This document shows, one piece after another, positions 34,367 to 41,225 of a DNA stretch of 64,000 bases (positions are counted from its first letter, which is position 1; every line of letters starts with the position of its first letter). The DNA is from Thermoplasmata archaeon. GTDB lineage: Archaea; Thermoplasmatota; Thermoplasmata; UBA10834. Below the pieces are notes generated by a model, which searched no databases, was not told the origin of the DNA, and worked only from the letters and a program-made list of their open reading frames with translations. Position numbers and translations under genes: made by a program. The DNA lies in contig JAOTTD010000006.1 in NCBI GenBank assembly GCA_029864565.1, positions 1 to 64,000 of the forward strand. Reading direction: 5' to 3'.

Positions 34367-35107
34367 ATGTGCAGAATGGTCGGCGTGGTGTTCAAGGGCG
34401 CGTTTCCAATGCGTTCACTCATGGACCTGAGGCATTTCGCAGAGATTGGCAAAGTGCCAGACCAAGGGATCGAATTGGACGGTCACAGGGACGGATGGGG
34501 GATGGTATCTTTTAGCAACGGCTCACCGTACTACCTTGGAAGGAGCCCTCGCCCGATCCACATGGACCCGTCGTTCGATTCCGCGTTGACCGGCATAGCC
34601 GGATTGGAACGTCCTAATGTGTTGATTTGCCATGCCAGACGAGGGTCGGAGGGCGAGGTGAACCTCCAAAACACCCATCCATTCATCAGCTCCGGGGTAA
34701 CCTTTGCGCACAACGGCGGGGTCAAGGAGTTCCATCCTCGAACGTCGTATATTCCGAGAGGAACCACCGATAGCGAGAGGCTTTTCGCCCTCTTCATTGA
34801 CAGATATGAGCGGCTGGGCGATGTCGGAACCGCGATCGAGTCGATTCTCGAGGACGACGTTCGCAAGCACGAGTTCACAGGCCTGATCTTCCTGGTCTCC
34901 GATGGCAGGCATCTGTATGGCTACAGGGAACATGGCAAAGGTCGCGACAGCAGCTACTACAACTTGAAGTATCTCGTCGGCGACGATAACGTGGTGGTTT
35001 ATCAGGAATCCTGCTCTGATGACGATGGCAGAGCCATCCAAGTGGACAACGGCTCTCTGATCAAGGTTGGTATGGACTTAGAAGTCGATACTAAGAAGCT
35101 GAACTAG
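34367..35107 (+). CDS. Class II glutamine amidotransferase-like protein
   Basis: MCRMVGVVFKG (Cys2), DGWGMVSF, ICHARRGSEGEVNLQNTHPF, TFAHNGGVKEF, TDSERLFALF. Confidence 0.9.
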   Translation: MCRMVGVVFKGAFPMRSLMDLRHFAEIGKVPDQGIELDGHRDGWGMVSFSNGSPYYLGRSPRPIHMDPSFDSALTGIAGLERPNVLICHARRGSEGEVNLQNTHPFISSGVTFAHNGGVKEFHPRTSYIPRGTTDSERLFALFIDRYERLGDVGTAIESILEDDVRKHEFTGLIFLVSDGRHLYGYREHGKGRDSSYYNLKYLVGDDNVVVYQESCSDDDGRAIQVDNGSLIKVGMDLEVDTKKLN

Positions 35108-35625
35108 ATCCCCGACTTCCGCGCTGCCAGCCTGATGGCCTCCGTAACACTATCCCTTGGCATGATCGTGGCTATTGGAATGTCGACCACTCGCTCGATG
35201 GTGGCGCTCACGATGGGCGCGCAGACGATTGCCTTCGCGCCGTCTCTCTCTGCACGAACCGATGCTACAATCGCATCCTCCAGCGTCGTCGCGGGATACT
35301 CGATAGTCAGGATCTCCTTTCCTTCTATCGTAATCGACCGCTCCACAACTTCCGCCAACACATGTCTGGCTGCTATGACAGCAATGAAATCGCCTGGTTC
35401 GCTCCTTTCGATTCCTCCTACGGCTCTAAGAATCCTCCTAAGTACATCCAGGCTTGGCGAACGTTCTCCCCCGATCATCTTGTAGAGGGTGCTAGGGGAT
35501 ATTCCGGAACTCTCCGCGAACTCCTTTATGGTCATGCCCAGGTCTGACAACACCAGTCTCAGAGTCTTGCTGAACGCTTCGTCGGATTGGGCGGCAGCCC
35601 GCAGCAATTTTCCGCTATTGTCCAT
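35104..35625 (-). CDS. XRE-type HTH regulator with C-terminal ligand/sensor-like domain, divergent from the ABC transporter
   Basis: LSDLGMTIKEFAESSGISPSTLYKMIGGERSPSLDVLRRIL; C-terminal GAKAIVCAPIVSATIERVVDIPIATIMPRDSVTEAI. Confidence 0.8.
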   Translation of the reverse strand: MDNSGKLLRAAAQSDEAFSKTLRLVLSDLGMTIKEFAESSGISPSTLYKMIGGERSPSLDVLRRILRAVGGIERSEPGDFIAVIAARHVLAEVVERSITIEGKEILTIEYPATTLEDAIVASVRAERDGAKAIVCAPIVSATIERVVDIPIATIMPRDSVTEAIRLAARKSGI

Positions 35626-35746: not shown

Positions 35747-36874
35747 ATGGAGAGGATGACTGTCATAGTCGCAATAGCGATGGCCGTTGCACTCGTGGTC
35801 GGCGTTTTTGCCGTCTATGTTGTGCTCGATTCGAATGATGGGGACGGGGCCACCAATGTGGTCTATTACACAGTGGTGCCACCGGCGAGCATGAAGGGAG
35901 CACTCGCGGCCGGCCAGATCGACGGTTACATTGCCTGGGAACCGTTTGTCTCGGATTCCGTCGTCGGCGGAGTGGGCAAGGTTCTGGAGTGGTCAGAAGA
36001 GATAGCCCCGAACCACCCGTGCTGCGTCGTGGCGGTGCACAACCCGTTCGTGTCTGATCAGGAAGGGCAGGAGCTGGCAGCGCGCTTCATGAGGGCACAC
36101 ATGGACGCGACGGATTGGATCAACGCGGCAATGGCGGACAAGGAAAGCGCTGAGTACGACCTGTTGAAGAACATCTCAGTCGAATTCACGATGAGGAACG
36201 AATCGGTTGTCGAGGAAGCGCTACAGCATATGCAGTTCAGATACGTCATGGACGACCAATTTTCAACCGCCCTCGAGAACTTCACCGGGATGTACATGGA
36301 TATAGGTGTCGTTGATGAGGAGAAGATTGCCGGTGGTGGTTACGAGAACGTAACGGATTTCATCGACCACTACGTGAATGAGAGCTACCTTGGGCTGGCC
36401 ACTTCCGTGGAGCCGAGCGACACGATATTGAACCCGGATTCTGCGATACGGCTTGGCTTCCTGCTGGGAGACATTCACCAATTGGCTCAGGCAGTGGCCA
36501 GCAGCACCGATGTTTTGGTCAACGGCAAGAGCATGTTCGAGGATTACGGCCTGAATGTCGAGAACGCGATCGGAGCCCCGTTCGCTAACGGTGGAGCCGT
36601 CATGGACGCATTCGCCGGAGGCTATGTCGATATCGGCTACCTCGGGAGCCCACCCGCAATCCTCAAGCACCTGAACGCCGAGATTGATACCACCATCGTC
36701 GCCCAAGCCAACAGCGAGGGGAGCGCGATCGTGGTGGAGGCCGGCTCTGGGATCACGAGCCTCGAAGGCCTCGCTGGGAAGACAGTTGCCACTCCTGGCG
36801 AGAGCTCGATACAATTCCTGCTCCTGAAGATGGCTCTTCAGTGGGAGGGCATGGAGCTGAAGATCAAGACCTGA
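35747..36874 (+). CDS. NitT/TauT-type ABC transporter substrate-binding protein with circularly permuted half-domains
   Basis: N-terminal TM anchor, then VVPPASMKGALAAGQIDGYIAWEPF...NHPCCVVAVHN (normally the second half), then AIRLGFLLGDIHQLAQ...GGYVDIGYLGSPPAILKHLN...LAGKTVATPGESSIQFLLLKMAL (normally the first half). Confidence 0.8.
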   Translation: MERMTVIVAIAMAVALVVGVFAVYVVLDSNDGDGATNVVYYTVVPPASMKGALAAGQIDGYIAWEPFVSDSVVGGVGKVLEWSEEIAPNHPCCVVAVHNPFVSDQEGQELAARFMRAHMDATDWINAAMADKESAEYDLLKNISVEFTMRNESVVEEALQHMQFRYVMDDQFSTALENFTGMYMDIGVVDEEKIAGGGYENVTDFIDHYVNESYLGLATSVEPSDTILNPDSAIRLGFLLGDIHQLAQAVASSTDVLVNGKSMFEDYGLNVENAIGAPFANGGAVMDAFAGGYVDIGYLGSPPAILKHLNAEIDTTIVAQANSEGSAIVVEAGSGITSLEGLAGKTVATPGESSIQFLLLKMALQWEGMELKIKT

Positions 36875-36928
36875 CCTTCTCTCCAAACATCTAATCCTGT
36901 TCCGCGCCATCCAGGTTGAGGAGAATGC

Positions 36929-37750
36929 ATGAAGTCGATTGTTCGATTGGCCAGGGGAGTCATGAGCCGCAACTGGAGGCGTGTGCTCCTTGGCGGTCTC
37001 TCGATTGCGGTGTTCATCGGCGCGTGGCAGGCGTACTCCTGGTACCTGAATGCGAACGATTACGGATACGCTGCCTACATCCCCTATCCCGGAGAGGTCG
37101 CTGAAGCCTTCCTCGATTCGTTCGTGACAACAGACGCAACGGGCCTACTGATGATGGACCACATCTTCGCAAGCCTCAAGAGGATATTCCTGGGATTCAC
37201 GCTCGCATTCGTCATCGCTCTTCCGGCTGGGTTGTTGATGGGCAGCTATCAGACCTCCGAAGGTCTCGGGATGCCTATCGTCGAGATATTCAGGCCCATA
37301 CCCCCGCTCGCTTGGATACCGATATTCCTCGTGGTTCTTGGCCACCTTTGGGGGCCAGTAGCTATTGTCTTTTTCGGGATATTCTTCCCCATACTGTTCA
37401 ACGTTATGCTCGGCGTCAAGAGGGTGGATCCGATCCTTATCGACGCGGCCAAGACGCTGGGCGCAGGAAGACAGCACATCTTCTTCAAGGTGGTCCTGCC
37501 TTTCACCACACCCTACCTGATGACGGGAATCAAGGTCGGCCTCGGCATCGGGTGGATGTGTATCGTGGCCGCGGAAATGGTCGGCCAGTATGGCGGTGGC
37601 GTGGGCTATTACATCTGGGCCATGAACGAGTTCTCCCTTTACGATTACGTCTTCGCGGGCATAGCGGTGATCGCCATACTGGGTATACTGACCACCGGCG
37701 TCGCCGGTCAAATCGAGAGGAGGTTGTACATTTGGATGGGGATGAAGTAA
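36929..37750 (+). CDS. NitT/TauT/SsuC-type ABC transporter permease
   Basis: [66 protein letters not shown]. Confidence 0.93.
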
Positions 37751-37758
37751 ACATTCGA

Positions 37759-38544
37759 ATGGAGAACCTCCTCAAGGTGTTCAAGGAGGACACCAGGGAG
37801 ATAGTCGCACTCAAGGGATTCAGTCTGGACGTGGTCGATGGTGAGTTAGTCTGCTTACTGGGCCCATCGGGCTGCGGAAAGACAACGGTTCTCAGGATTG
37901 CGGCGGGCCTCGAGACCAAAAGCGGTGGACACGTTTCCGTGAGCGGCGAGGAAGTCTCTGGCGCCGGGCCGAACAGAGGAGTGGTGTTCCAGGAATTCGC
38001 CCTCTTCCCTTGGCGCACCGTGAGAAAGAACATCGAGTTCGGCCTTGAGATTAAGAAGATGTCAGCGGACGAGAGAGAGGCGATATCGTCGAAGTACATC
38101 GACCTCGTGAATCTCGAGGGGTTCGAGAACGTTCATCCCCAAAAGCTCTCTGGTGGGATGAAGCAGCGCGTCGGAATCGCAAGAGCGTTGGCGAACGACC
38201 CTGCGGTTCTGCTCATGGATGAGCCTTTTGGCGCCCTCGACGCACAGACCAGGAACCTAATGCAGAAGGAGTTGTTGAGGATTTGGTCGGCGACCAAGAA
38301 GACGGTGCTGTTCGTGACACACTCCGTCGACGAGGCGGTGTTCCTTGCAGATAGAATAGTCGTGATGACCGCGAGACCGGGGATGGTCAAGAAGATCATC
38401 TCTGTGGCCCTCCCGCGCCCTCGCGAGAGGACGAGCGCCGACTTCATCACCATCCGAAGCGAGGTCCTGCAGGTCCTCGAAGCCGAGTTCAAGAAGACGA
38501 TGATGCGGGAAATGTCTGATGGCGGAGTGGAGCACAAGGCTTAA
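37759..38544 (+). CDS. NitT/TauT/SsuB-type ABC transporter ATP-binding protein
   Basis: [72 protein letters not shown]; start inside the long ORF (alternative TTG at 37732). Confidence 0.93.
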
Positions 38545-38558
38545 TTCTTCTATACTCG

Positions 38559-39050
38559 ATGCAGAAATTCATGAGCTTCGAGCTAAATGTAGTCAATAAT
38601 ACGCCACTGACGCCGCTATCCGACATCGAGGAGGTGGCCATCCTGTTTCTGAACCAGATAGGCTACTTCCCGAAGGGCTACGATCCAAAGACGGAGGCGA
38701 CCGACATTCGCGACAGCGTGCCCTACAGACTCGTAATAGACAATTTCCTGGGCAGGCCCGACAAGGCGTGGGTCGTCGAGGACCTCGCCGCTTCCCTCGG
38801 GACGACGAAGACGACCGTGTACAGGCACATAAACAAGCTGAAGGGCTTCGACTTGTTGGAGGAGGCTAGCGTCGATAGGCCAGGCGGCTCCTCCAAGAAG
38901 GGGTATAGGATCAGGTACGGCAATCTGAGCAAGGCCTGGAACTTCACCGAGGCTCACGTACAAGTGGCGATGGAGAACTATCGCAAGACCGTCGACCATA
39001 TGCAGGAACTCATTCAGAAGAAGGGGTATAAACATGCCAAAAAAAGGTGA
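38559..39050 (+). CDS. Archaeal HTH (ArsR/winged-helix) regulator
   Basis: WVVEDLAASLGTTKTTVYRHINKLKGFDLLEEASVDRPGGSSKKGYRIRYG. Confidence 0.75.
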   Translation: MQKFMSFELNVVNNTPLTPLSDIEEVAILFLNQIGYFPKGYDPKTEATDIRDSVPYRLVIDNFLGRPDKAWVVEDLAASLGTTKTTVYRHINKLKGFDLLEEASVDRPGGSSKKGYRIRYGNLSKAWNFTEAHVQVAMENYRKTVDHMQELIQKKGYKHAKKR

Positions 39051-39318
39051 AGCGATCACCCTTACGGAAGGGTCTGAGTACAGGATTAAAAGCCTCGAGG
39101 CGAGGGACAAACCGATGGAGACCATAGGGTTCTTCAAGGGATATGCGGCGATCGCACACGACACCGCCATGGTCATGGAGATCGAGTCCCCCGTAGGCGA
39201 GCACAAGTCGATGTTGAGGTTGATACCGTCTCACATGGTCATATCTATAGACGTGCTCAAGGCGGGAGAGGAGAAGAAGGAGAAAGGCCCAGAAGGAGAC
39301 CCAATCTACTTCGGATGA
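39034..39318 (+). CDS. Conserved small archaeal protein, possible SH3-like/Sm-like barrel
   Basis: Overlaps the upstream HTH gene by 17 nt; ETIGFFKGYAAIAHDTAMVMEIE...LRLIPSHMVISIDVL. Confidence 0.6.
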   Translation: MPKKGEAITLTEGSEYRIKSLEARDKPMETIGFFKGYAAIAHDTAMVMEIESPVGEHKSMLRLIPSHMVISIDVLKAGEEKKEKGPEGDPIYFG

Positions 39319-39614
39319 GAGCGGCGCGTGAAATGACCGTCAGATTGAACACGATTGAGGCCCGCATTGTGGAGATACTCAGGCGGCGATATCCAATCAC
39401 CGTTGAGGAGCTTCGCGAGGAGATGTCCATCAGACGCGACACGCTTAGACTAGCGCTCAAGTCTCTCGAATCGAAAGGAGTGCTCGCCCTAGAGCCACTT
39501 CCGGATAAGACGTATGTACGCTTGTTGACAGGCGTGGTGGAGTCCGGGACTGTGCCCCAGCAAGCAGAAGGCTGGACGCGTGACCAAGATGACATCGACA
39601 TGGCGTATCGGTGA
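39315..39614 (+). CDS. Small HTH protein
   Basis: RIVEILRRRYPITVEELREEMSIRRDTLRLALKSLESKGVLALEPLPDKTYVRLL; overlaps the preceding stop by 4 nt. Confidence 0.6.
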   Translation: MRAAREMTVRLNTIEARIVEILRRRYPITVEELREEMSIRRDTLRLALKSLESKGVLALEPLPDKTYVRLLTGVVESGTVPQQAEGWTRDQDDIDMAYR

Positions 39615-39686
39615 AGGTGGGCAAAGGGGCGTGTTTGACTGACAGAAACGGAAGCAGACGCCTTACCTATCGCTTATATCGACGAT

Positions 39687-41225
39687 TTGCTGGAAATGCT
39701 CGCGCGAGGCGAGATAGTCAGCAGAGACGGCGTTCTCAGGGCCAAGGCCGCTCTGTGCAAGAAGTACGGGTTGTCGCAGGTACCGACCAATTACGAGATC
39801 CTCGAACATGTTCCGGATGACCTGAGGATGTCGGTGGCCCCACTACTGCGAAACAAGCCGGGAAGGACCATCAGCGGCGTAGCTCCTGTGGCGGTAATGA
39901 CGAGCCCGTTCGACTGCCCTCACGGGCGGTGCTCCTACTGCCCCGGTGGCGTGTCCAACGATAGCCCTCAATCGTACACTGGAAGAGAGCCAGCGGCGTT
40001 GAGGGCATCCATGTACGAATACGATCCTTACAGACAGACCAGTGCCCGTCTCAAGCAGTTGACGGCGATTGGCCACCGAACGGACAAGGTCGACTTGATA
40101 ATCATGGGTGGGACGTTCACAGCTCGCCCGTCGGAGTACCAGGAACAGTTCGTCAAGAGATGTTTCGACGCCATGAACTCACGGGAGTCTCCTGATCTCC
40201 AGTCCGCCCACAGTGTGAACGAGAGTGCACCGTCTCGATGCGTGGGACTGACGGTTGAGACGCGGCCTGATTGGTTCCTGGACGAACACGTTGTCCGTTC
40301 GATGTCAATGGGGGCAACGAAGGTCGAACTCGGGGTTCAGATACTTGACGATGACGTGCTCGATGGCGTCAAGCGAGGGCACCATGTGAGGGACATCGCT
40401 GACGCTACAGCCCGTGCGAGGAAGGCCGGTCTGAAGGTGTGCTATCATGTGATGCCTGGGCTACCTGGTAGTAGCGCGGACAACGATCTCCGGTCGTTCT
40501 CGTTGATGTTCGAGGACGAGAGGTTCAGGCCCGACATGCTCAAGATTTACCCCACCTTGGTCGTCAAAGGGACAGAGTTGTATGATTGGTGGAGGGCGGG
40601 AGATTACGTGCCCATGTCCCTCGAGGAGACAACCGCCCTTGTGGTGAAGATGAAGGAACGCGTTCCTCCATGGGTGCGCATACTCAGAGTGCAGAGGGAT
40701 ATCCCTGTCCAGCTGATAGAAGCTGGCGTGCGCAAGAGTCATCTCAGAGAGCTCGCATCGTGGAAGCTCAAGCGCGGCGGCCATAGATGTGCCTGCATCC
40801 GCTGTCGGGAGGTGGGGCGCATGGGAGTCCGCCGAGACATGGTGGAGGAGGATGTCAGGCTCTCCGAACTCTCTTACAGGGCGGGCGGTGGCACCGAGTT
40901 CTTCTTCAGCTACTCTACGACGGAGAGCGATAGCCTTATCGGATATGCCCGGTTGAGATGTGCTGACGACCCGTCAAGGCATCCTGCCAGGGTCAGGGAG
41001 TTGCATGTCTACGGTGAGATGGCTCCCATCGACGAGAATCCCGTAAGCGCTTGGCAGCACAAAGGGTTTGGAGAGGGCCTGCTGTCCCATTGTGAAGCAA
41101 AGGCCGCCTCCCTTGGGCACGGGTCTGTGAGCGTCACAAGCGGTGTCGGCGCGAGGAACTACTACAGACGCCTTGGCTACGAGCTGACGGATATGTACAT
41201 GTCGAAAGTGGTTGGAAGAGCATAA
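39687..41225 (+). CDS. elp3: Elp3-type radical SAM/GNAT tRNA uridine-34 modification enzyme
   Basis: VAVMTSPFDCPHGRCSYCPGG, IIMGGTFTARPSEYQ, GLTVETRPDW, VELGVQILDDDVLDGVKRGH; C-terminal GNAT; a TTG start slightly upstream is possible. Confidence 0.95.
   Translation: MLEMLARGEIVSRDGVLRAKAALCKKYGLSQVPTNYEILEHVPDDLRMSVAPLLRNKPGRTISGVAPVAVMTSPFDCPHGRCSYCPGGVSNDSPQSYTGREPAALRASMYEYDPYRQTSARLKQLTAIGHRTDKVDLIIMGGTFTARPSEYQEQFVKRCFDAMNSRESPDLQSAHSVNESAPSRCVGLTVETRPDWFLDEHVVRSMSMGATKVELGVQILDDDVLDGVKRGHHVRDIADATARARKAGLKVCYHVMPGLPGSSADNDLRSFSLMFEDERFRPDMLKIYPTLVVKGTELYDWWRAGDYVPMSLEETTALVVKMKERVPPWVRILRVQRDIPVQLIEAGVRKSHLRELASWKLKRGGHRCACIRCREVGRMGVRRDMVEEDVRLSELSYRAGGGTEFFFSYSTTESDSLIGYARLRCADDPSRHPARVRELHVYGEMAPIDENPVSAWQHKGFGEGLLSHCEAKAASLGHGSVSVTSGVGARNYYRRLGYELTDMYMSKVVGRA

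Follow-up and report, generated by a model that had tools for sequence, protein, structure and literature searches.

The gene at positions 35747-36874 (plus strand) of contig JAOTTD010000006.1 from a Thermoplasmata archaeon raises the question whether a binding protein with exchanged halves represents a natural circular permutation or an assembly artefact. All positions refer to the window, i.e. the complete 64,000-nt stretch that was analysed.

Segment order and predicted fold

The ORF starts with ATG and encodes 375 aa. Pfam profile NMT1_2 matched the protein with an E-value of 6.6e-28 for the whole protein (98.6 bits, cut-off 24.7), profile positions 130-249 corresponding to ORF residues 14-136, and positions 15-118 of NMT1 (35.3 bits, cut-off 20.5) aligned to residues 263-370. 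In a search of the genome DNA, NMT1_2 positions 127-249 come first and 24-149 second, which is the reversed order; this protein is the sole NMT1_2 match in the whole genome. The SsuA structure 3uif is likewise matched in two parts, with chain residues 23-143 corresponding to ORF residues 250-369 and 154-240 to 45-134. The ORF thus reads as in the original prediction, which had also described an N-terminal transmembrane anchor; the two Pfam profiles and the 3uif match show that the canonical second half precedes the first. With TIGR01728 the score of 114.5 stayed below the cut-off of 163.5, the match being split into two stretches, and Pfam OpuAC gave 12.5 bits (cut-off 21.2, E 0.11), which by this test places the protein outside the OpuAC/ProX glycine-betaine family. 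Judged by its sequence, the ORF is confirmed as a NitT/TauT-type (SsuA-like, type II) binding protein with segments in rotated order. It shares with the NitT/TauT/SsuA-type proteins (NMT1, NMT1_2; TIGR01728; PDB 3uif, 2x26, 6ssy) the same segments, motifs, predicted secondary structure and an operon with one permease and one ATPase, but the order of segments is rotated. As in natural permutants, the same segments are found rotated and homologous to those of unrotated proteins.

Along the plus strand, the chain opens with a putative membrane anchor and linker (aa 1-37, 35747-35857), for which the AlphaFold2 (AF2) secondary structure has a predicted helix at residues 2-29 and a linker of low pLDDT at 29-34; in some relatives a lipobox replaces the N-terminal helix. 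Segment X (aa 38-216, 35858-36394), the canonical second part with the WEPF and HPCC motifs, begins at the break termed cut A and is delimited by the matches to NMT1_2 130-249 and 3uif 154-240 and by the HMM order. A linker (aa 217-232, 36395-36442) connects the ancestral C- and N-termini; the corresponding linker between Xb and Y1 (see below for the division of X) comprises 14-35 residues in cut-A proteins. It is followed by segment Y1 (aa 233-311, 36443-36679), the canonical first part from lobe I with the motif DIGYLGSPPA, assigned by NMT1, 3uif 23-143 and the HMM order. Segment Y2 (aa 312-375, 36680-36871) contains a crossover strand and the GKTVATPG motif and ends at cut A with GMELKIKT; NMT1 extends to residue 370, and the C-terminal end is conserved in cut-A members. 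The HMM order is X-Y1-Y2 and not the canonical one, in which the start of lobe I and GKT.ATPG precede PP..M..WEP.

An AF2 monomer model of the 375-aa protein (P0001), computed from an alignment of 37 natural cut-A sequences, reached a pLDDT of 92 and a pTM of 0.84, and the canonical-order relative L068 from a Baldrarchaeota MAG, modelled alike, a pLDDT of 94.8. When secondary structures are compared, the confident model of the permuted protein has the strands and helices of the canonical relative in rotated order: the second half of L068, from the strand at 167 onward, corresponds to P0001 from the strand at 38 onward, and the first half of L068 to P0001 from the strand at 234 onward. The linker bridges the ancestral termini, and P0001 has an extra short C-terminal strand (370-373) compared with L068. 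The break had been proposed to lie between GMELKIKT and VVPPAS near the inter-lobe hinge. The rotation holds, but not the location at the hinge: on our reading of the secondary-structure order in both models and of the established type II topology, cut A would fall within lobe II, separating the two crossover strands that run between the lobes. Because of this position, we infer that cut A moved the anchor from lobe I to lobe II.

A Foldseek search of the PDB with the permuted model gave no collinear match, the TM-score being at most 0.29 in all 50 matches listed, whereas the canonical L068 model matched SsuA, TauA and NrtA with TM-scores of up to 0.85. At E<=0.001, 1367 matches were found for the L068 model versus 11 for the permuted one. 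For the permuted model only glutamate-receptor chains were listed (rmsd about 30, TM <0.3), which we take to mean nothing more than that a collinear match is absent.

Conservation of the permuted order and of the operon

The same order is present in the same genus, in the same family and in further phyla. Genomes G002, G004 and G006 of the same genus contain an end-to-end or near match with 71-75% identity, and about a dozen genomes of the same family match the protein end to end or nearly so. Among the named relatives with permuted order are proteins of Thermoplasmata, Methanomassiliicoccales, Ca. Mnemosynella, Archaeoglobi-like MAGs and Bacillota such as Thermincola MAGs; in the Thermincola class, several of the ten genomes searched encode a full-length permuted protein. 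On contig JAENYP010000025.1 of one Thermincola MAG, two operons with a permuted binding protein (L056 and L058) are separated by about 14 kb. Dozens of genomes, assembled independently of one another, share the permuted order. It had been considered that the order might stem from a misjoin or a collapsed tandem repeat, and the source MAG does consist of 76 contigs. However, the order is found over the whole length in about 15 independent assemblies from the same genus or family, two of them (G002 and G006) single contigs, it recurs in distant phyla, and the flanking genes are conserved as well. We regard an assembly artefact as ruled out for all practical purposes because independent genomes, single-contig ones included, share the order.

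The gap downstream of the gene (36875-36928, 54 bp) contains no complementary half, as had been stated at the outset. It is followed by an ABC permease (BPD_transp_1, 36929-37750, plus strand; Pfam E 3.6e-24) and a SaoA/TauB/NrtD-like ABC ATPase (37756-38544, plus strand, start codon inferred; Pfam ABC_tran 2.7e-30, best NCBIfam match SaoA, below cut-off), both syntenic in relatives. The binding-protein gene thus shares its operon with a single BPD permease and a single ATPase of the Ssu/Tau/Nrt kind, and both adjoin the permuted gene in nearly all relatives. On the opposite strand, a divergent XRE-type regulator was assigned at 35104-35625 (Pfam HTH_3 and synteny). A relative of this regulator also adjoins the transporter of L068, whose binding protein has the canonical order, and the arrangement XRE-SBP-permease-ATPase is common to the permuted and some canonical forms. 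Further downstream in the window (38559-41225) there are an HTH gene, a small unknown protein, a second HTH gene and an Elp3-like gene, which adjoin the operon in many relatives.

Judged by family and synteny, the protein most likely serves a three-gene ABC importer as its binding subunit, and the ligand would be small and anion-like. An assignment to a Sao-family substrate was dropped, since the scores lie under the curated cut-offs, and a search with Rfam of the loci of 20 relatives found no riboswitch that would name the substrate. Most likely, the N-terminal helix would hold the protein at the membrane, and the permuted chain would fold into a two-lobed clamp that feeds the downstream permease; we infer a monomeric clamp in vivo and a small anion-like ligand.

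Cut sites, tandem fusions and linker scars in relatives

Profiles of the segments X, Y1 and Y2, with X subsequently divided into Xa and Xb, were used to sort the relatives by order. Besides the canonical order Y1-Y2-X (39 distinct sequences), we found cut A (X-Y1-Y2; 56 sequences), cut B (Y2-X-Y1; 32) and cut D (Xb-Y1-Y2-Xa; 5), as well as a single sequence with cut C, which splits Y2, in Theionarchaea. Another genome (G451) also has cut C, in a sequence with 86% identity. Cuts B and D were found in one Thermoplasmata family. The family thus has at least four cut sites, of which the original prediction had described one. A search around the Theionarchaea genome also yielded L185 (G461), a distant 403-aa ORF with the HPCC motif and cut-A order. 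Given L185, the permuted group may extend beyond the members surveyed.

Some relatives carry two units in one reading frame. L049 (JAKPZB010000063.1, ORF from position 1825, 731 aa) is an A-A fusion behind a single anchor, the first unit of which is degenerate and has lost WEP and HPCC (HPGS instead). L134 and L135 (G209 and G242) are in-frame fusions of two similar B units with open frames of 790 and 793 aa; the two units of L134 are almost identical, which suggests a recent duplication or gene conversion. In all three, the stretch across the join has an order that differs from that of the single units. This joined stretch provides the intermediate that a change of cut requires, and tandem fused intermediates as expected for permutation by duplication therefore exist in the family. 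As a separate observation, L150 and L151 (G032 and G117), read by eye, carry a YPCC-containing SBP-like domain behind a fused HTH-like N-terminus; from its sequence, this looks like a binding protein turned regulator.

A permutant derived from fused copies should retain the old terminal tails as extra linker residues at the closed cut, and such scars amount to about 6-21 residues. At the closed cut A, each of the 36 ordinary canonical proteins has a linker of exactly 3 residues, whereas its length is 12-24 in B, 14-17 in D, 15 in the B-B fusion and 12 in L126. At the closed cut B, it has 3 residues in canonical proteins, a median of 3 and a maximum of 14 in A, 9-14 in D and 16 in the B-B fusions. 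These differences correspond to Mann-Whitney p-values of 9e-15 and 3e-10, which overstate the evidence, as related sequences are not independent. In a few cut-A proteins the Y1-Y2 linker is long (up to 14), so that scar length alone is no proof in a single case. Because the linkers are lengthened at the closed cuts A and B, it appears that B and D descend from A, and D from B. L126 has canonical order but is nested among cut-A members of family f20, and its junction reads like a cut-A tail joined to a cut-A leader; this lineage has apparently rotated from cut A back to the canonical order.

In a tree built from de-permuted alignments, with distant canonical proteins as the root, every A, B and D member groups with three canonical proteins in one clade (support 97/97). 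The B members form one group inside A, and D falls at two places inside B, a single origin of D being rejected. Together with the scars, the tree supports the order of steps canonical to A to B to D, with D arising twice. The AU test rejected a tree in which the permuted proteins make up one clade free of canonical members (p 0.0002, or 0.0094 if the likely revertant L126 is allowed in). This raises the question whether cut A arose only once and was later reverted, or had separate origins in the Archaeoglobi/Bacillota group and in Thermoplasmata. The canonical proteins L147 (linker of 3) and L024 (linker of 7), without a clear scar, belong to the permuted clade and branch close to the base of its Thermoplasmata group, and the AU test that rejects moving them out (p 0.0094) speaks for two origins. 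On the other hand, the position of the cut is identical and the whole group is one clade (97/97), and L024, L147 and L043 are placed with low support (86/56 and below), long branches weakening the tree in this region. We consider independent origins possible, with the odds leaning somewhat against them; cut A may have arisen twice, or L024 and L147 may have reverted without trace.

Origin, working unit and significance of the permutation

The best explanation, to which we assign a probability of roughly 0.88, is that the gene encodes the permuted type II binding subunit of a three-gene importer, with cut A produced by duplication and loss of the outer parts, and that this process was repeated in relatives. 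An in-frame tandem duplication would have been followed by loss of the outer parts with the N-terminal anchor kept. The same process would have led from A to B, from B to D twice, from A back to canonical once and from canonical to C. A natural permutation through tandem duplication with subsequent loss of the outer halves, one of two possibilities named in the original prediction, is supported by the conservation of the order and the fused units L049, L134 and L135; the tandem fusions, junction scars and ordered steps in relatives argue for duplication as the route.

Two further readings concern the state of the gene product. Decay of a non-functional remnant of a tandem duplication could be suspected from frameshifts inside the permuted gene of the relatives L018/L109 (G008) and L125 (G351), which may reflect sequencing error or decay, and from the loss of WEP and HPCC in the first unit of L049. 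Nevertheless, WEP, HPCC and other residues are invariant in 37 diverse cut-A sequences, permease and ATPase are adjacent in nearly all cases, and the genome encodes only this one NMT1_2 protein, which makes decay very improbable. It is also conceivable that the permuted protein works as a domain-swapped dimer or polymer, with each chain's segment X completing segment Y of its neighbour. Tandem fusions would suit an assembly of this kind, and an engineered lobe of ribose-binding protein forms a segment-swapped dimer (PMC9815098), but the AF2 monomer model is confident across both lobes, and the linker of 14-35 residues between the old termini of cut-A proteins is probably long enough to close the monomer. 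We thus consider a swapped assembly unlikely and favour the monomeric permuted subunit.

Type II binding proteins are already known to include natural circular permutants, as reported for OpuAC versus ProX and the molybdate-binding proteins (CPSARST, PMC2395249), a precedent that the original prediction did not name. Those are deep relationships with <24% identity that were recognised by structure, whereas here many permuted and canonical forms occur in the same operon, with several cuts, scars and tandem intermediates. The route of duplication, fusion and truncation is likewise known, with intermediates, from DNA methyltransferases and saposin/swaposin (reviewed in PMC3320104); by comparison, scars within one transporter gene allow the succession canonical-A-B-D and a likely return to be put in order here. 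Engineered circularly permuted halves of ribose-binding protein indicate that binding-protein lobes tolerate permutation (PMC9815098), but these are single lobes of the type I fold, unlike the natural type II permutant described here. In the open-access papers searched, we found no earlier report of permutation in the present family. As far as the literature searched shows, the new elements are serial rotation in one transporter family, tandem intermediates, ordered scars, a cut that originated more than once and a probable return.

Searches that assume collinear sequence or structure, such as those with curated cut-offs or Foldseek, give permuted proteins of this kind too low a score or overlook them. 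For permutation by duplication, the usual evidence is a pair of end states, whereas here the path can be reconstructed step by step because the canonical order, four cut sites, fused copies and linker scars coexist in one family. It is tempting, if rather speculative, to suppose that serial rotation through fused tandem copies, including the return to canonical order and two origins of one cut, has been selected because it changes which lobe is tethered. If this were true, the binding lobes would be the constant of the family and the point of membrane attachment its evolving trait.
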